From the NCBI GenBank assembly GCA_001875345.1, contig MIZA01000005.1, forward strand, positions 1 to 36,578: a DNA stretch of 36,578 bases, given 5' to 3'. This stretch comes from Marine Group III euryarchaeote CG-Epi1 (GTDB lineage Archaea > Thermoplasmatota > Poseidoniia > MGIII > CG-Epi1). A program made the translations under genes and the position numbers. Under the pieces are notes generated by a model. The model saw only the letters and a list, made by a program, of their open reading frames with translations, was not told the origin of the DNA and did not search any database. This document shows, piece after piece, positions 3 to 10,356 of the stretch. Within the stretch, counting starts at the first letter, position 1. Each line of letters starts with the position of its first letter.

Positions 3-3000
3 ATATTGCTTTTAGACGATGATAACAGCGGAAATAATGGTGGTTCGAGGACTGAAACTGACTCATACTATGCCAATGCCCTTGACAATCTTACTAATCC
101 TATTGCATATGATATTGTAAGAGTCAATAGTAGTGCTGATGCTCCTGGAATAGATGTTTTATCAGAGTATCAAATGATTATTTGGGTATGTGGAACTGAC
201 TACCAAAGTGGAGACACTGATGTAACTTTTACTGATAACGACAAATCAAATGTCGCAGAATATCTAGAGGATGGAGGAGCTATGTGGGTTATAGGAATGG
301 ATATTTTGTATGATTTTGATACATCAGACGGTGATCGTAGCGCTGGTGACTTTGAACACGATTATCTTGGCGTTAGTTATGCCGATAATGACAGGGCAAC
401 ACCAGCTGTAGTATTTGGTGAAGACGATGATCCTATTTCTGATGGTATAGAATACGATGCTGATGCGATAAGCTCAGATTTTGCAGATGATATTAATCCT
501 AGAAGTGGATTTGAAAAAGTCTTAAGTTCAAATGGAGACTATAATATTTCAACCATAAGAACTGAAGATGAATTCAAATTGGTATTCATGACTATCGATT
601 TTAGTTCTATTACGAGTAGTGATGATAGGGACGAATTTATGGAAAACGTTGTTGAATACCTTGTTGAACAACTAGAAAATGATGTAAGTTTAAGCAGATT
701 TAATACGCCTAAAGATGAAGAGACTGTTGAACCTAACGTTGAAAACATTGTAAATGTTACAGTAAGAAACAGAGGTACTGAAGACCAGGATAGTATTCAA
801 GTTTCATTAGAAATTACATGTTTAAATAGTTCATACACATTTACTGATTCTGAAACTATTTCGCTAGATTCAGGCACTGGTGCCTTTGTTGAGTTTGAAT
901 GGGACACTCCAGATGATGAAGATTATGTTTATCAGATAAAGAGTAAGGCCACAATTTCAAATGATGAAAAAGAAGAAAATAATGAGAAGATTATCAAAGT
1001 CAATACATATGTTACATATGATTTAGAAGTAAAAGACGCACGTGTTACTCCGATGATAGCTGAGAAAGATGAAGAAAGAGAAATGAGCGTAATTGTCACA
1101 AATAGTGGAGATGTTACTATGAATTCTGAAGTTAGCGGTAAAATTTACGATGGGGCCGGAAACGTTGTTGAAAATTTAGGAAACAAAGATGTCGAAGATT
1201 TAGCTCCAGGTGAAAGCTTAACGCTCACATGGGAATGGGAAACTGATGATTACGGAACTTTTTGGTTTGAAGCTAAAGTCATAGATGATAATGATGAAGT
1301 TCCAGAAAATGATATCATTGATTCGATGATGAGAAGTGTCGATGTTGAGTTTAGTGATGACATGGAAAGCGGAGTAAATGGATGGACTAATTACAAATCA
1401 TTAAGCAACCCATGGCATTTAATCGATACTGACGAGGATAGTAACAGAGAAGCTTCTAGTCCAACTCACGCAATGTGGGTTGGAGATGAATCTAAGGGAG
1501 ATGGAGAATATGACAATAATTGGGATTTCTCAGTTTATACAAGTGAAGAAATCTCACTTGGTCAGACTAATCCACAGATGTCCGTTGATATTTGGTATAG
1601 CACTGAATTTAGTTGGGACGGAGGTAATGTTCAAATTACAACTGACGACGGGGAGACTTGGGAAGTAATCAACCCTGATGGTGGATATCCTGATGATGCC
1701 GTAGTTGGATTGGATAATGAACCAGGATACACTGGAACTTCTGGCGAAGGAGACACTGCTGATTGGGAAACTGCATCCTTTAGTCTTGCAAACTATACTA
1801 ATCAAGATGTGAGGTTCAAGTTCAGATTTGGAACAGATTCAAGTGTAGAAGCCTACGAAGGATGGTATATTGATAATATTGAGGTTAACAGTGGAACTGA
1901 AACTCACTTTGAAGATGATTTTGAAGATGGCGACGGGGACTGGATGGCCGACATTGTTGAAAGTGAGTGGAATTACTACAACAACAAATCATATTCTGGG
2001 GATTATTCGTGGTATCTAGGAAACCCAAGTACTGAAACTTACAGTGCATCTCTAAATGATTCACTTGAATCTCCTACGTTTGACATCGGAGACGGTGCTG
2101 AAAAATATGTGTCTGCTATGGTATGGTTTGCAATTGACGGTCCAAATGATTTTGTCAACTTAGAAATAAATCAATCCGGCGAGTGGGAACTTTTAGAAAC
2201 TTTCCCCGGCGATGATGGAGATTACTCTAGCGAATACGATGGAGCTGACGAGAATGGGTGGCTCTATTTTGAAAGTGATGTAAGTGAGTATGAGGACGAT
2301 GTTTCATTCAGACTTAGATTTGAATCTAATACCTTCACTCAACTTGAAGGATTATATGTTGATAATTTTGCAGTTTATAGTCTTCCACCAATACCTAACG
2401 ATGTTGGAACTAAAGAATTAGATTCGCCTAGCACAGCTAAACCAGGAAGAGCTGTAACTTTTACTTCTGAAATCTACAATTTTGGAACAAATGATCAAGA
2501 TGATTTTGATATAAGAGGCACAGTAACTAGAGACGATGGTACTGAAGTTTACAACGAAACTCAAACTATTGATACACTTGAGTCAAAAGATAATTCTACA
2601 TTGGAATGGACCTGGGAAGGTGGGCCTGAAGGTACCTATACAATAAGAGTAGAAACATTGTTAACTGGAGATGAAAGAGCTGGTAATAATCCAAAAGAAG
2701 AAAATATAGATATAGCTGAAAGTGGCTATAATGTTGCTTTAGCAGTACAAGAGCAAGCAAAAGATGTACTATCTGGTGAATCTGTAGCGTTCAATTTTAC
2801 TGCCACAAATACCGGAGAAAATAGTGGATATTACGACATAAGCTTAGATTCTGAACAAGAAGATGATTGGAAAATTATTTCTCATGTAAGTTCTATTTAT
2901 CTAAGTTCAGGCTCAAGTCAAAACTTTACCGTAGTTGTAATTGCTCCAACATTGGAGCCTACTGGAAATGAACATTCCTTTACTGTAACTGTGACAAGTA

Positions 3001-6000
3001 GAGATGATCCTGAAACTGAAGACAGTAGTGACATCTCCGCAACCCCATTCTATCATTCACAAGAAGGTGGAGATAAAGTTCTGTTAGTCGATGCAAATTT
3101 CGGTAAAAATAATGGATATAACAACTACTATAATGTAGATAAAATAGATAGCCGCTTAAAGTTCGCTTTACAGGAATACTTTACTGATGGAGAAAGTCGA
3201 GGCTACGATGTTTACACTATGCCTTATGATAGTGAATTGGGATCATTTGGTGAATTAGGGCCATACCCTGCTTTAGATTTAATGAGTAACTATGATGTAG
3301 TTATATGGACTCAAGGTGATCATAATCAAAGAAATATTACTAATTGGCAAGAATGTATCAGTGAATATTTAGATCAAGGTGGAAGCCTTTGGATTATGGG
3401 ACAACAATTTTTAACAGCATTAAATGGAAGTGACGGACCGAGAGAATCTGGTGATTTTGAATATGATTATTTAAAAATTGATTACATTAGAAACAATGTT
3501 GGAACGCCTGATCCACTAATCGGAGTAGACGGAGATGAAATCTTTGGTGATGCTGAATATAACATGGGAGATACAAGCATATATTTCTCTGACTATGCTG
3601 ATTGGATAAGGCCTAACGATGAAGCTATTGGTGCATTTTATACTGATAGAAGTAATTGGTGGCATATTGTAGATACTGTTAGCGATCCAAATCGAAAAGC
3701 AAATAGCCCTACTCATTCAATGTGGATAGGGGATGAATCTAAAGGCGATGGAGAGTACGGTAATGGATGGGATTACTCTGTTTATACTTCAGATGAATTC
3801 ACACTTGGAAACAGCCCCCAGCTATCATTCCAACACTACTATGATACTGAAAGTGAAAGCTATGCTTATGATGGAGGAAACGTACAAATTACAACTGATG
3901 GAGGAGAAACATGGGAAGTTATACAACCTAATGGAGGATATCCGGCTCAGTCAGTTAGCGGTTTAGATGGAGAACCTGGTTACTACGGACAATCCGGAGG
4001 GTGGGTACAAGCTACATTTGATTTAACAAATTTCTCAGGTGAAGATGTAAAATTAAAATGGAGATTTGGAGCTGATGGAGTTATTGACACCTACGAAGGT
4101 TGGTATTTTGATGATGTTGAATTAACTTCTAACGGAGGAACCACAAGTCATTTATCTGACGATATGGAAGATGGAATGGAAAACTGGGATGACGCTGCAC
4201 AGGTTTTCAACATGTCTTTACATTATGATGGAGATTACAGACTAATTGTTTCTCCTTTTACATTTGGTAAGGTTAATACTTCGAACGATCGTGAGGACAT
4301 GGTAGGAAGGGCTCTTGACTGGTTACGAGCCTCTGCAGCTGCAGATGATGTTGGAGTTAAAGTACTCAAATTAGAAACCGACGCAAAAGAAAATTCAACC
4401 ATTTCGTTTTCAAGCATAATAAAGAATTATGGCTCAGATACTCAGGCAGCTATTGATGTTAAAGCAACTATTCTAGACTCTCAAGAGAACGAAGTCTGGA
4501 CTAATAATCAACAGATAACAGGACCATTAGAATCTGGTGAAGAAGAAACATTAGAATGGGAATGGGAAAGTAATAATCCTGGTGAATACATAATTATTGT
4601 AGAAACTACAAAAGAAGACGAAAATCATAGGAATGATGATAAAGAAATTGATTTAGATGTTGAAATGGTTCATCTGCCTGAGATATCTACTTTTAATCAA
4701 GATAAAGAAGGCGAACCTGGTGCAAAATTAGAATTTAATATTGTTATCAAAAACTCAGCTTCCGGAACCGATACATTCTATCTTGATATGGTTGGATCTG
4801 CTGAAGATTGGGGATCTATGACAAATCAAATGGAAATGAAAAGTAATGAAAGTAAAGACATTGAACTGCAGATAACCATACCAGATGATGCTGAATATGA
4901 CTTATATGATCTAACTATTATTCTAACTGCCGGAGACGTTACTGAAACCTTAGACTTAACTATAGATGTGACAGATAATCCTACAAATTATGAAGTGGAA
5001 ATATCTGTAAGTCCAACAAACACTGAATCTGTAGCTGGACAAGATGTAGAATTTAGTGTAACAATATACAACAACGGGGATGAAACCGATACATTTGATC
5101 TTGAAGTTTTAGGAGATGAAAGTGAATGGGTCCAATTTGAAGAAAACGGAATTACTATTGGAGCAGATGGTGAAGCTACTGTTAATGGAATAATCTCAAT
5201 TCCTGACGACCAAGATGATGGAAATGTGTATATTGAAGTTGAAGCCACTTCAAGAGGTGACGAAACTGCAAAAGATGATAAAACAATCAGAGTTTCTGTA
5301 GAAGAATTAGAAACTGGTGTAACTCTACGAAGAGAAGGATCTGGCTTAAGAACAGTAGCTCCCGGCGAATCTGATACCATCATGTTTAATATTTTGAGTG
5401 ACGGAAACGGAAAACAATCTATAGAAGTAGTTGCTGAAAGCCAAGCTGGAAACTGGGTTGTATTAGAACCTGCAACATTTGATTTAGATGTTGATGAAGC
5501 TAAAGCTGTAAGTGCAACCGTAAATGTTCCATTAGGAACATCTGATGCAACATATCGCTTAGAAATATTAATTTTTGATGACAATGGCAATGAATTAGCA
5601 AAATCTATATCAAATATAGTTGTTCAAACTCCAATTGAAGAAATTCAAGATGTTTCTCTTTGCTTCGCTGATTTGAGCAACCTATGTTTAGATTCAGCAA
5701 ATTTTGAAATCACAATTGAAGCTTCTAAAATACAAACTGCATCTGCTGGATTTATCATTGAGAACAAGGGAACTGTTGATGTAGACGTTGCACTTGAATT
5801 GATTATGCCAGATGGATCTAAAGATACTGATCTTTACTTTGATGAAAATAGTAAAGAATGGAGACTAGCTATTTCTCCATCCGACACTAAATTATATCCA
5901 TTAAAAGTTCAAGCTGGTGAAACGCTAGATTGGGGAGCTTTAGCTGTAATTGCGAGAGAAGTTCTACCTGGAACATACACATACACACTGAATATTTTAT

Positions 6001-6191
6001 CTGCAAGTGAATCTTCAAGTGGAGGATATGTCTTTGAAATATTAGATCAGGTAACCTTAACAGTTACAGTTGAAGGCGACATCATATCTGAAGAAACTGC
6101 GTCTGAAGGAGAAGACTCTTTACTTCCTGGACCTTCATTCTTATCTGTTGTAGGTCTCTTAGCACTAATTGTCCTCAGAAGAAAAAATTAA
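3..6191 (+). CDS. Giant secreted/surface protein, 5'-truncated by window edge; two ThuA/GATase-like domains, CARDB/NEW3-like beta domains, InhA/MAM-like jellyroll domains, C-terminal PSF sorting signal
   Basis: Long ORF open to the left edge (ATA-TTG-CTT... in frame, no credible start). Repeated 'VQITTDDGETWEV...GYTG...EGWYIDNIEV' modules. C-terminus LLPGPSF-LSVVGLLALIVLL-RRKN-like tripartite tail (motif, TM helix, basic residues). Confidence 0.85.
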   Translation: MLLLDDDNSGNNGGSRTETDSYYANALDNLTNPIAYDIVRVNSSADAPGIDVLSEYQMIIWVCGTDYQSGDTDVTFTDNDKSNVAEYLEDGGAMWVIGMDILYDFDTSDGDRSAGDFEHDYLGVSYADNDRATPAVVFGEDDDPISDGIEYDADAISSDFADDINPRSGFEKVLSSNGDYNISTIRTEDEFKLVFMTIDFSSITSSDDRDEFMENVVEYLVEQLENDVSLSRFNTPKDEETVEPNVENIVNVTVRNRGTEDQDSIQVSLEITCLNSSYTFTDSETISLDSGTGAFVEFEWDTPDDEDYVYQIKSKATISNDEKEENNEKIIKVNTYVTYDLEVKDARVTPMIAEKDEEREMSVIVTNSGDVTMNSEVSGKIYDGAGNVVENLGNKDVEDLAPGESLTLTWEWETDDYGTFWFEAKVIDDNDEVPENDIIDSMMRSVDVEFSDDMESGVNGWTNYKSLSNPWHLIDTDEDSNREASSPTHAMWVGDESKGDGEYDNNWDFSVYTSEEISLGQTNPQMSVDIWYSTEFSWDGGNVQITTDDGETWEVINPDGGYPDDAVVGLDNEPGYTGTSGEGDTADWETASFSLANYTNQDVRFKFRFGTDSSVEAYEGWYIDNIEVNSGTETHFEDDFEDGDGDWMADIVESEWNYYNNKSYSGDYSWYLGNPSTETYSASLNDSLESPTFDIGDGAEKYVSAMVWFAIDGPNDFVNLEINQSGEWELLETFPGDDGDYSSEYDGADENGWLYFESDVSEYEDDVSFRLRFESNTFTQLEGLYVDNFAVYSLPPIPNDVGTKELDSPSTAKPGRAVTFTSEIYNFGTNDQDDFDIRGTVTRDDGTEVYNETQTIDTLESKDNSTLEWTWEGGPEGTYTIRVETLLTGDERAGNNPKEENIDIAESGYNVALAVQEQAKDVLSGESVAFNFTATNTGENSGYYDISLDSEQEDDWKIISHVSSIYLSSGSSQNFTVVVIAPTLEPTGNEHSFTVTVTSRDDPETEDSSDISATPFYHSQEGGDKVLLVDANFGKNNGYNNYYNVDKIDSRLKFALQEYFTDGESRGYDVYTMPYDSELGSFGELGPYPALDLMSNYDVVIWTQGDHNQRNITNWQECISEYLDQGGSLWIMGQQFLTALNGSDGPRESGDFEYDYLKIDYIRNNVGTPDPLIGVDGDEIFGDAEYNMGDTSIYFSDYADWIRPNDEAIGAFYTDRSNWWHIVDTVSDPNRKANSPTHSMWIGDESKGDGEYGNGWDYSVYTSDEFTLGNSPQLSFQHYYDTESESYAYDGGNVQITTDGGETWEVIQPNGGYPAQSVSGLDGEPGYYGQSGGWVQATFDLTNFSGEDVKLKWRFGADGVIDTYEGWYFDDVELTSNGGTTSHLSDDMEDGMENWDDAAQVFNMSLHYDGDYRLIVSPFTFGKVNTSNDREDMVGRALDWLRASAAADDVGVKVLKLETDAKENSTISFSSIIKNYGSDTQAAIDVKATILDSQENEVWTNNQQITGPLESGEEETLEWEWESNNPGEYIIIVETTKEDENHRNDDKEIDLDVEMVHLPEISTFNQDKEGEPGAKLEFNIVIKNSASGTDTFYLDMVGSAEDWGSMTNQMEMKSNESKDIELQITIPDDAEYDLYDLTIILTAGDVTETLDLTIDVTDNPTNYEVEISVSPTNTESVAGQDVEFSVTIYNNGDETDTFDLEVLGDESEWVQFEENGITIGADGEATVNGIISIPDDQDDGNVYIEVEATSRGDETAKDDKTIRVSVEELETGVTLRREGSGLRTVAPGESDTIMFNILSDGNGKQSIEVVAESQAGNWVVLEPATFDLDVDEAKAVSATVNVPLGTSDATYRLEILIFDDNGNELAKSISNIVVQTPIEEIQDVSLCFADLSNLCLDSANFEITIEASKIQTASAGFIIENKGTVDVDVALELIMPDGSKDTDLYFDENSKEWRLAISPSDTKLYPLKVQAGETLDWGALAVIAREVLPGTYTYTLNILSASESSSGGYVFEILDQVTLTVTVEGDIISEETASEGEDSLLPGPSFLSVVGLLALIVLRRKN
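1411..1945 (+). repeat. InhA/MAM-like module copy A, diverged DNA-level repeat of 3657..4190
   Basis: PWHLIDT...THAMWVGDESKGDGEY...VQITTDDGETWEVINPDGGYP...EGWYIDNIEV...DDFEDGDGDW matches copy B. Confidence 0.8.
3657..4190 (+). repeat. InhA/MAM-like module copy B, inserted inside the second ThuA/GATase-like domain
   Basis: WWHIVDT...THSMWIGDESKGDGEY...VQITTDGGETWEVIQPNGGYP...EGWYFDDVEL...DDMEDGMENW. Confidence 0.8.
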
Positions 6192-6979
6192 TCAAAATAT
6201 TTGTTTAAAATTAGCACTGGTAAAAGCAAGAAGTAGACTAAGTACAAAAGTAATGCTAAAGGCCACATTGTAAGCCAAAATACTTGTTCTAAATATCTAA
6301 GAACTATTGTTATTATTAGTACAATTAATCCAAAAAGTATAGGAAATTTAAATTGTTTTCTAGCTTTAGCATAAGGTATGGTTGATGCAGTTAGTAATGA
6401 AACCAAACCAATAGATAAGGGAATTAGTATATTATTATAATCATTAATTTGTGAATACTTAATTGAAATTACTACTATAAACATAGTTAATCCAGGGGAA
6501 GGTAACCCAGAAAAATATTCATTACTACCTTGGTCTCCTATAGTGAAATTAGCTAATCTGATTATACTTAAAATTGCAATTAATAAGGCTGAAGAAATTG
6601 CAACTATATTATCTATGTTATATCTGAAATTTACGTCAAAGTTATCATCAAAAATATCTATTGCTGGGCCCTTGTCTAAATCATAGTACAATGAATAAAC
6701 CAAAATAGAAGGAGCAATTCCAAAACATATTGAATCTGAAATTGAGTCAAGATATTTTCCATAATGATGTTTGGTACCAAATTTTCTAGCCAATGCGCCA
6801 TCCATTCCATCAATGATTGCACAAAAAGGCAATATTAACATGGCTACAATGTAACTTTTCTCATTACCATCAATCATGTATGTTATTGCTAAAAAACCCA
6901 AAGAAGCACTTAGTAAAGTTGCCATATCTGCGTAAGATATCAAAGTTAATGGCCTAAAAATCTGTTTTAAATTAATCAT
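6188..6979 (-). CDS. pssA: CDP-alcohol phosphatidyltransferase, probable archaetidylserine synthase (PssA-like)
   Basis: Motif DGMDGALARKFGTKHHYGKYLDSISDSICFG matches the CDP-OH-P transferase signature DGx2ARx8Gx3Dx3D; multiple TM helices; directly adjacent to the decarboxylase fusion. Confidence 0.85.
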   Translation of the reverse strand: MINLKQIFRPLTLISYADMATLLSASLGFLAITYMIDGNEKSYIVAMLILPFCAIIDGMDGALARKFGTKHHYGKYLDSISDSICFGIAPSILVYSLYYDLDKGPAIDIFDDNFDVNFRYNIDNIVAISSALLIAILSIIRLANFTIGDQGSNEYFSGLPSPGLTMFIVVISIKYSQINDYNNILIPLSIGLVSLLTASTIPYAKARKQFKFPILFGLIVLIITIVLRYLEQVFWLTMWPLALLLYLVYFLLLPVLILNKYFD

Positions 6980-6982
6980 AAT

Positions 6983-8638
6983 TCACTCATCACTTTGGGT
7001 AGCCTGTAATTTTGACAAAATACGCTTGGGAGCCTCAAATAACTTTTCAGTAACTGATAATGAAGACATTGGTGTATATTCTGCCAACTGTTGTCCGGCC
7101 AATACTCTGTCTCCCTTTTTCACTAAAATTTCTATACCTGCAGATTCAAATGATAAATCAACGCGAGAACCGAAATGGATTAATCCTATTCTTTCACCCT
7201 TTGTAACTTCTATACCTGGTTTAACGTAACTAACAATTCGCCTAACTAAAACTCCTGCAATCTGAATTACTTTCATTACACCAATTGAGGTTTCTATCTT
7301 AGTCATCAGACGCTCGTTCTTATCTGAATCCTTGTAAAAAGCTGGAAGGTAACCTCCAGATTTATGTTTAATAGACAAAACTTTCCCATCAAAAGGAGAC
7401 CTGTTTACATGAACATTATGGACATTCATAAATATGGATAAGCGGACCATTCCACTCTTTATTTCTGCCCTTTGTACAAGACCATCAGCGGGACTAACAA
7501 TTCCAGATTCAATTTTTCTTTCAGGATCTCGGTAAAAATACAACAAAAAGCAAGAAACTAATAACAAGATTATTGATAAAGTATACATGCTTTCAAGAGG
7601 AAGATTTGAATCAAAACCTTGCTCTTCAACTGATTTTGAAAAGAAACCAAATGGAAATAATACCAGGCCAGTAACTAAGAGATATGCTACTTGAGAAGGC
7701 ATACCTTTAGCAAAAGGAAGTCCTCGTAAGCCATCCGGAGCCTTTCTAAGAGGTAAATCAATTACACCTAATATGGAATCCTGCATTTCTGGCAAAAAAT
7801 GAAATACTGCTATTGCCAGAAAAACCAAAGCAATTAAACTTCCAATCTTACCCAAAACTCCGTGGGCATAAAAGAATGTTTCATCTCCCCAGATGTGCTC
7901 ATATGTTAACCAAATAACAACTGCATTTCTTATTAAATTTAATAGATAAATTGCAGGAACTGTAGCAAGAAATGCATAAAATCTTCTATCTGCAGGGGCC
8001 TTAGTACAAACAACTCCGCCCACAAATATTATCATACTTTGTAAAGCCGTACATGCTAATACAATAGTAACTGATACTGAATCAGGATTACGCCATTCAT
8101 CACCTTCAATGGCGATTTGAACTTCTTCATGATTGGAAGCTGGCCTGTAATATTTTGATCCATCACCATAATCTAAATTGCCTAAAGATGTTGGAATATC
8201 AAATGAATTTAATATCCATATTGATTGTTCAGCAACTATTTGGATTAACCAACCTGAGAGGATAGGGACTCGCTCAACGAAAAAATAAATTCCGCCAGCA
8301 ACAACTGTCATCGCAGCTAGCCATCTGAGTGGTTCATAGTTAGCATTCCAACGTATACTTAGATATTCATGTATTGCCAAGTAACCGAAAAACGGCATCG
8401 CTAATGCACAGAAAAAACCGTTTGCTGGATCATTAATTAAAATGTAATGCTCTACTTGTATCCACCAAAAAAAACCTAGAAGTAACCAACCTATTATATT
8501 CAAATTGTGACCTATTTTTACAGGAAACTTCTTACCAAAAATAATATGGGCCTTGCTTGAAAAAAAATATCCTAATGATAAAATAATTAAGGAACTGATG
8601 ACAAGAACTTCTGCAAGTATAGATAAATCACTAGCCAT
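6983..8638 (-). CDS. Archaeosortase/exosortase-like membrane protease fused to phosphatidylserine (archaetidylserine) decarboxylase
   Basis: N-terminal polytopic region with candidate catalytic Cys197 (LACTALQSM), Arg238 (NLIRNAVV) and His260 (FYAHGVLGKIGS), as in exosortase/archaeosortase families. C-terminal FYRDPERKI, SPADGLV, MNVHNVHVNRSP and HFGSRVDL are typical of PSD, with GS the pyruvoyl autocleavage site. Residue numbers follow the track ORF, which begins with GTG at 8641; ATG follows at 8638. Confidence 0.85.
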   Translation of the reverse strand: MASDLSILAEVLVISSLIILSLGYFFSSKAHIIFGKKFPVKIGHNLNIIGWLLLGFFWWIQVEHYILINDPANGFFCALAMPFFGYLAIHEYLSIRWNANYEPLRWLAAMTVVAGGIYFFVERVPILSGWLIQIVAEQSIWILNSFDIPTSLGNLDYGDGSKYYRPASNHEEVQIAIEGDEWRNPDSVSVTIVLACTALQSMIIFVGGVVCTKAPADRRFYAFLATVPAIYLLNLIRNAVVIWLTYEHIWGDETFFYAHGVLGKIGSLIALVFLAIAVFHFLPEMQDSILGVIDLPLRKAPDGLRGLPFAKGMPSQVAYLLVTGLVLFPFGFFSKSVEEQGFDSNLPLESMYTLSIILLLVSCFLLYFYRDPERKIESGIVSPADGLVQRAEIKSGMVRLSIFMNVHNVHVNRSPFDGKVLSIKHKSGGYLPAFYKDSDKNERLMTKIETSIGVMKVIQIAGVLVRRIVSYVKPGIEVTKGERIGLIHFGSRVDLSFESAGIEILVKKGDRVLAGQQLAEYTPMSSLSVTEKLFEAPKRILSKLQATQSDE

Positions 8639-8669: not shown

Positions 8670-9404
8670 CTAAGGTCTTTTTTCTAACCAATTCTGCGCC
8701 TCTGAATAAGATTCTAAACCACCAATATCATACCAACTTCCCTTAAATGATACTGACAAAACTGGATTACGTTTAACATTCCAAGTTAAAAAATTACCCA
8801 TTGCATCTCTATCTCCTCCGCCTTCTATGTACGTAAAAAAATTATTTATCCCTGATTCTGAAAGTAGCCAATAAGCAGTTGCTGCCAACGTAGATGGAGG
8901 AGAAGAAGGTTTTTCAACAAAATCAATGATTCTGTTCCCCTCTAGGTTAGCTATACCATATAATTTTGCTAATTCTATATTTTCAACATCAAATAAACCG
9001 ATAACATCCGAATTCGATTTTTCGTATAGGTCGATCATTTTTATTAAATCAAAATCTGATAAATTATCGCCTCCAGCTATGAAAACTGGACCTGTCAGTT
9101 TTTTCTTTTTGAATAAAAGATTTAAAGCACCTAAAGCGCCTAATTTTTCGTTTTCATTAGTGCTTTCTTCAATAAATAATTCAATTTTCTTATCTTTAGA
9201 ATTAGACGATAAATACTCTTGAAATTGAGGTGCAAAAAAACTATTTACTGAAACAATAATTCTTTCAAAATCAAGATTATCTAGAGAATCAAAAACATAA
9301 TCAAGCATTGGTTTCCCCGCAAGATTAAGAAGTTGCTTAGGTTTATTCTTGGTTAATGGCCACATTCTCTTAGCAAAACCACCTGCGAGAATTATAGCGT
9401 CCAT
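8670..9404 (-). CDS. Sugar-phosphate nucleotidyltransferase (NTP_transferase family)
   Basis: N-terminal MDAIILAGGFAKRMWPLTKNKPKQLLNLAGKPMLDY signature; internal VEKPSSPP and GSWYDIGGLESY. Confidence 0.85.
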   Translation of the reverse strand: MDAIILAGGFAKRMWPLTKNKPKQLLNLAGKPMLDYVFDSLDNLDFERIIVSVNSFFAPQFQEYLSSNSKDKKIELFIEESTNENEKLGALGALNLLFKKKKLTGPVFIAGGDNLSDFDLIKMIDLYEKSNSDVIGLFDVENIELAKLYGIANLEGNRIIDFVEKPSSPPSTLAATAYWLLSESGINNFFTYIEGGGDRDAMGNFLTWNVKRNPVLSVSFKGSWYDIGGLESYSEAQNWLEKRP

Positions 9405-10294
9405 TAAAGGTTTATTTTACCGCCAGACATTAATTGCTGTAAGGCATCATCTGCTGCAGATTCTAATTTTTTAGGATTATACAACTCATCCTTTATGTTC
9501 TTTCTATGGTCTTTAACTACTTTCCATCTGGCTTGTCTTTCTTCATTAGCCGTTTTTCTGTGTAATTTTAATGCTTCTAGCATTTCCATAGCCTTAGAAT
9601 GTTGGTTGTCAGCTTTCTTACGAACATTTACAAATTCTTTATGCTTTTTATCTGCTTCTGTAGATAAATGGGAAGCTTCTTTCATAAGGTTACTAACCTT
9701 TTTGTATATTTTTTTGTTGAGCTTGGCCAGAACTATAACTTCATTATGCTCATCATTAGCCTTAGAAAATTCTGAATCTATTTCAGCATCTAATTCAGAT
9801 ACTTCTAAATTTAAATGCTCTTGAGTTGCAAGTTCACTCTCTTGCTCTCCCAAACTTCTCCTCAATATTCCTAACTTTTCCATTACTTCTCTCTCTTTAG
9901 AAATTGGCATTTCCGTAGTTTCTCTTCTTCTTTCTAAATTAAGAATTTCTGAATGTAATGCCTGAACTGTATCGGTAAGAGACTTTCCACCTTTTTTGTT
10001 TCCTCGCTTCTGTTGCTTTATTGAAATTAGTTGTTTAGCTTTTTCCTGTGCTGTATTTCTTACCTTCTGGTGTTTAGCTTTAGCGGAAGTATTTGATTTC
10101 ATTTCTTCCCTATGCTTCATAATTTCTTCCATAATCTTTCCTCTTTGATCATGTAAAGCATTTCGCTCATCCCGGAGGGAGCGGGCTTCGTCATTGAAAT
10201 TATTTCTTTTCACTACACAACTTTGAAAACGTTCTTCAGCCAATTTAATTTCTGATTTTGGCTTTTTTTGTTGTCTAGATTTCTTTTGACTCAT
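9404..10294 (-). CDS. Archaeal coiled-coil protein (COG1340-like)
   Basis: Highly charged K/E-rich heptad-like sequence throughout. Start MSQKKSRQQKK at 10294 preferred over the upstream start in the track. Confidence 0.65.
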   Translation of the reverse strand: MSQKKSRQQKKPKSEIKLAEERFQSCVVKRNNFNDEARSLRDERNALHDQRGKIMEEIMKHREEMKSNTSAKAKHQKVRNTAQEKAKQLISIKQQKRGNKKGGKSLTDTVQALHSEILNLERRRETTEMPISKEREVMEKLGILRRSLGEQESELATQEHLNLEVSELDAEIDSEFSKANDEHNEVIVLAKLNKKIYKKVSNLMKEASHLSTEADKKHKEFVNVRKKADNQHSKAMEMLEALKLHRKTANEERQARWKVVKDHRKNIKDELYNPKKLESAADDALQQLMSGGKINL

Positions 10295-10356
10295 AACTAA
10301 ATACGCCTCTAGGAATTTGTAAACCTCGAGCATATGATATAAAGCTGACTATTCAG

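Follow-up and report, generated by a model that had tools for sequence, protein, structure and literature searches.

To our knowledge, the joint working of archaeosortase and lipid enzymes has so far been tested only in salt-loving archaea. The archaeosortase A family (TIGR04125) was reportedly described by Haft et al. in 2012. In Haloferax volcanii, cleavage by the archaeosortase ArtA is blocked when either PssA or PssD is missing, the S-layer glycoprotein is no longer labelled with lipid without PssA, and ArtA, PssA and PssD are all located at midcell (Abdul-Halim et al. 2020, PMC7157517). The authors of that study proposed that archaetidylethanolamine (AE) resolves the ArtA thioester (PMC7157517). 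Methanosarcina has artA-pssA-pssD gene clusters (PMC7157517).

The window, that is, the whole 36,578-nucleotide stretch of contig MIZA01000005.1 from the Marine Group III (MGIII) euryarchaeote CG-Epi1, carries what its sequence suggests is this known system in a new form, with archaeosortase and lipid decarboxylase in one polypeptide. In the open-access archaeosortase literature covered, which yielded only the Haloferax work and reviews, we found no description of an ArtA-PSD fusion, and prior notice is possible. The initial annotation had read the gene as a single uninterrupted ORF, and translation bears this out on the minus strand, from an ATG at 8638 to a stop at 6983-6985 (551 amino acids plus stop). 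Its parts are as follows.

6983-8638, minus strand: fused ORF, archaeosortase A plus transmembrane (TM) hairpin plus archaetidylserine decarboxylase (PSD), from profiles and an AlphaFold2 model
7760-8512, minus strand: archaeosortase A domain, residues 43-293
8051-8053, minus strand: Cys196, archaeosortase site
7928-7930, minus strand: Arg237, archaeosortase site
7862-7864, minus strand: His259, archaeosortase site
7535-7696, minus strand: two-helix membrane hairpin between the halves, residues 315-368
7082-7549, minus strand: PSD domain, residues 364-519
7484-7486, minus strand: Asp385, PSD site
7409-7411, minus strand: His410, PSD site
7166-7171, minus strand: Gly490-Ser491, predicted self-cleavage site, a PSD family motif

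The N-terminal half had been called archaeosortase-like, and it does match the exosortase superfamily: residues 43-293 pass the curated cut-off of archaeosortase A (TIGR04125, 140.7 versus 75 bits), a family to which the MGIII protein adds a C-terminal PSD domain, and the exosortase/archaeosortase signature TIGR04178 is found at residues 190-284 (64.8 versus 23 bits). The C-terminal half, annotated as archaetidylserine decarboxylase-like, exceeds the gathering cut-off of PF02666 (135.3 versus 22 bits, E=2.8e-39, residues 364-519) and the cut-off of NF003685 (195.3 versus 183 bits), and the FYRDPER, SPADG, NVHVNRSP and FGSR motifs are all found in the fusion. Archaeal and bacterial PF02666 PSDs share its Asp-His-Ser residues, its Gly-Ser self-cleavage motif and a TM hairpin before FRDP, whereas the N-terminal archaeosortase is the MGIII addition. 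The half scores under the cut-off of NF038088, the Haloferax-type sorting archaetidylserine decarboxylase (174.3 versus 240 bits), and is therefore not classed as a member, although it appears to work like the NF038088 enzymes.

The C-terminal half was also held to have TM helices of its own, which correspond to the hairpin ahead of the PSD domain (helices at about 315-333 and 350-368 by hydropathy, 315-332 and 348-368 in the AlphaFold2 model). Prediction of the full-chain structure, which the initial annotation had proposed, gave a confident model from a 68-row alignment (mean pLDDT 87.9, pTM 0.83). A Foldseek search of the PDB matched the C-terminal half to the PSD-like decarboxylase PsiD (8x4q, E=1.9e-3) and found no solved counterpart for the archaeosortase half; no solved structure close to the fusion by sequence was found.

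The candidate catalytic residues of the archaeosortase had been numbered Cys197, Arg238 and His260, each one too high because they were counted from an upstream GTG; from the ATG they are Cys196, Arg237 and His259. The residues themselves are borne out by the archaeosortase alignment, where they occupy 47/47, 47/47 and 46/47 rows, respectively, and provide the Cys, the Arg and the third basic residue that archaeosortase A requires. Asp385 and His410 are each present in 37/37 rows of the PSD alignment and Ser491 in 38/38, and all aligned MGIII fusions retain both the archaeosortase Cys/Arg/His and the PSD Asp/His/Gly-Ser. The PSD family matures by self-cleavage at Gly-Ser, which yields a pyruvoyl cofactor; the masses computed for predicted cleavage at Gly490-Ser491 are 54.9 kDa for an ArtA-PSD beta chain and 6.7 kDa for an alpha chain. 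The third archaeosortase residue, His in the MGIII clade, differs from that of Haloferax ArtA, since the residues reported for H. volcanii are Cys173, Arg214 and Arg253 (PMC9263693).

Setting CG-Bathy1 aside, all 18 intact MGIII loci covered, each from its own assembly, carry the fusion; one of these loci (L096) has masked bases, and a further MGIII fusion locus ends in frame at a contig end. Two of the fused loci belong to the single-cell genomes AG-343-J07 and AG-343-N02. Two separate ORFs with a stop between them, the arrangement that the initial annotation had asked relatives to reveal, were not seen at these loci, and among MGIII only CG-Bathy1 has a stand-alone archaeosortase. In a PF02666 search, the fused PSD was the only full-length PSD found in fusion-bearing MGIII genomes; elsewhere in the class, no PSD frame long enough for such a fusion was found.

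The fusion lies in an operon and faces a convergent gene for a large surface protein; these neighbours and a second surface protein of the window are the following.

6188-6979, minus strand: PssA-like archaetidylserine synthase, the next operon gene, 3 bp after the fusion stop
8670-9404, minus strand: sugar-1-phosphate nucleotidyltransferase, a conserved upstream neighbour (PF00483, 7.3e-36; synteny)
9404-10333, minus strand: coiled-coil DUF7121 protein, a conserved upstream neighbour (PF23435, 1.7e-7; synteny)
6-6191, plus strand: large surface protein, candidate substrate with tail SLLPGPSFLSVVGLLALIVLRRKN, convergent with the operon, its N-terminus cut by the contig end
17599-24723, minus strand: 2374-aa surface protein, second candidate substrate from tail analysis, ending STPSF-TM-LRREEE

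The PssA-like protein passes the cut-off of PF01066, CDP-alcohol phosphatidyltransferase (52.3 versus 22 bits, 1.1e-13), and the residues of the CDP-alcohol transferase motif D-G-x2-D-G-x2-A-R...G...D...D are invariant or nearly so. It falls below the archaetidylserine synthase cut-offs (92.7 versus 240 bits for NF038087, 76.3 versus 200 bits for NF038086). Gene order around the fusion, the convergent surface protein included, is conserved among relatives. In CG-Bathy1, which lacks PSD and PssA, the nucleotidyltransferase and DUF7121 genes still adjoin artA, and this pair is possibly linked to surface glycosylation. Further genes of the window resemble archaetidylinositol phosphate synthase and PgpA, and a GGGP synthase was found in the genome, which makes archaeol-type lipids plausible. 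MGIII and Haloferax have all three enzyme families in common, as well as substrates of the PGF-CTERM type, but the genes are unlinked in Haloferax, whereas in MGIII a single polypeptide comprises ArtA and PssD and the adjoining operon gene encodes PssA. In Methanosarcina, Thermoplasmatota and Archaeoglobaceae, the same genes stand side by side as they do in the MGIII operon.

The convergent surface protein has a full copy of 2200 amino acids with a signal peptide on a second contig (G000:C2). In a profile search, no CTERM model scored over its cut-off on the tails of the two window surface proteins, and tails were therefore analysed genome-wide, over all contigs. About 20 proteins of the genome that are predicted to be secreted bear PGF-CTERM-like tripartite tails. 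A hydrophobic segment followed by basic residues ends 17 of the 36 predicted secreted proteins of at least 500 amino acids, versus 1/76 non-secreted proteins (Fisher p=2e-9), and P[GSA][FPSLI] precedes the hydrophobic segment in 13/21 tails versus 3.8% in the bodies of the same proteins (p=6e-14); both p-values overstate the case, because the motif and thresholds were picked after viewing the tails and are uncalibrated. Two tails match PGF_CTERM (TIGR04126) at 1.6e-5 and 4.2e-5, just below the cut-off, which tails in many relatives of genus g1 pass. In the 2374-aa protein, the stretch HTVTDKASEFDSF...YYCKYHPMMEGTI resembles a copper protein, and the tail is of the PSF type with an acidic end, a tail type shared with two more proteins in the genome.

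Hydropathy and charge suggest that the ends of the helices carrying the archaeosortase Cys, Arg and His lie outside, that loops 211-222 and 284-314 lie inside, and that the hairpin (315-333/350-368) brings the PSD domain back inside. Helix 125-145 is best taken as interfacial, because it is not predicted to span the membrane in two of the three other-fusion sequences. The two active sites are thus predicted to be on opposite faces of the membrane, and direct hand-over of AE would therefore need lipid flipping.

The connection that the initial annotation drew with the ArtA/PssA/PssD pathway of Haloferax has gained support from the adjoining PssA, the PGF-CTERM-like tails, the tandem genes of relatives and the recurrence of the fusion described below. 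Considering these findings, we propose that the fusion is probably a bifunctional enzyme that belongs to the same archaeosortase pathway of lipid anchoring as in Haloferax. PssA would make archaetidylserine. The C-terminal PSD would cut itself at Gly490-Ser491, forming its pyruvoyl cofactor and leaving a beta chain of about 55 kDa, which retains the archaeosortase, and the small alpha chain. On the cytoplasmic face, the PSD domain would convert archaetidylserine to AE, while on the outer face the archaeosortase Cys/Arg/His would cleave secreted proteins at their PGF-CTERM-like tails, forming a thioester. AE from the same molecule would be the likely amine that resolves this thioester and becomes the lipid anchor, in line with the earlier suggestion that such a lipid may be the nucleophile or anchor of ArtA cleavage. 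The fusion would fix a 1:1 ratio and the co-localisation of two steps that are mutually dependent in Haloferax. It fits the Haloferax thioester/AE model and favours a physical ArtA-PssD association; it does not prove that AE is the nucleophile or that lipid is handed over directly.

The distribution of the genes bears on this proposal. Elsewhere in Thermoplasmatota, and in Archaeoglobaceae, artA and pssD stand in tandem as separate genes, often with pssA as a third member, and the tandem ORFs of relatives, unlike the MGIII fusion, are often parted by no more than a stop codon or overlap slightly. In many of 397 Halobacteriota genomes, artA and pssD share a frame that is broken by a stop, and an uninterrupted fusion was not seen in these genomes among the matches listed. 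Frames that span both domains with an internal stop (G092, G241 and others) were rejected as tandem genes. True fusions are present in two other Thermoplasmatota lineages, one represented by G069 (L069:1553-2842) and the other by G084 with G076/L145. On an ArtA tree of 61 rows, the fused state must have changed at least three times on well-supported branches (MGIII, G069 and G084/L145), and the ArtA-PSD fusion has arisen at least three times independently in the phylum. The PSD tree is poorly resolved and too weak to place the source of the MGIII PSD. The independent G069 fusion is 429 amino acids long and has no PSD hairpin, so that the decarboxylase sits directly on the archaeosortase.

Archaeosortases with intact Cys/Arg/His, together with PGF-CTERM-like tails, are also present in Poseidoniia family f3 (e.g. 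G026, G049, G055) and in CG-Bathy1 (L022, L108). Neither PSD nor PssA was detected in CG-Bathy1 or in most of family f3, and genome incompleteness is an unlikely cause because the pattern spans many species. AE thus cannot be required by every ArtA, and in these lineages ArtA probably works with a different lipid or with no lipid at all. Genomes of Poseidoniia family f2 (e.g. G023, which is complete) have a PSD of about 285 amino acids, and a close PssA was not found in about half of them, a single-contig genome included.

This distribution lends some weight to a reading that we consider unlikely overall, namely that tandem genes were joined as a matter of convenience: the PSD would make ordinary membrane AE, of which the archaeosortase makes no direct use, and co-expression would be the only gain. 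One-frame tandem artA-pssD genes, as little as a stop codon apart, are common in Halobacteriota and Thermoplasmatota, so that a lost stop codon could join them; some relatives have ArtA but no PSD; and the fused PSD, as the only full-length one in the genome, must cover any general need for AE. Such a fusion, however, was joined several times and kept across MGIII, and in Haloferax ArtA cleavage itself needs PssA and PssD (PMC7157517).

The bifunctional enzyme could go further and act as a single trans-membrane machine, in which AE made inside is passed through the protein's own membrane part to the thioester outside, with synthesis, flipping and attachment coupled; we regard this as a doubtful extension. 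It is very improbable that one half is non-catalytic, for example that the PSD half merely binds lipid and regulates the archaeosortase, as the catalytic residues of both halves are kept in every aligned MGIII fusion and PssA is kept in a genome where no other full-length PSD was found. No more credible is that a free PSD is produced from an internal start in addition to the full-length fusion. The linker of sampled genus g1 sequences does contain Met313, but no Shine-Dalgarno-like stretch precedes it and it is missing in genus g2; in the G069 fusion, neither ATG nor GTG occurs between the halves, which makes a separate PSD from those starts impossible there.

The end of contig C2 (G000:C2:48142-50091, L002) repeats window positions 5566-7435 almost identically, which represents strain variation in the MAG; the variant departs from the window at the PssA N-terminus and the PSD C-terminus (86% amino acid identity). 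We rejected it as a second PSD gene, as it overlaps the same locus. Although this strain-variant copy might raise the suspicion that two genes were wrongly joined in assembly or annotation, we rejected such an artefact as having a negligible chance, given the same in-frame join across the independent MGIII assemblies, two single-cell genomes among them, the conserved protein sequence of the linker and a PSD frame that stays open even in the C2 variant.

The question at stake is whether PssA and PssD act on the archaeosortase directly or only supply its lipid, and whether AE is the lipid concerned. That the sorting peptidase has repeatedly become fused to the last lipid enzyme is genetic evidence, obtained independently, for joint action, and it takes the pathway beyond haloarchaea and methanogens into uncultured marine archaea. 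Having both steps on one polypeptide makes the protein amenable to expression and to testing through two point mutants. Furthermore, the relatives that keep ArtA without PSD and PssA serve as a comparison provided by nature and hint that a second anchor chemistry exists.
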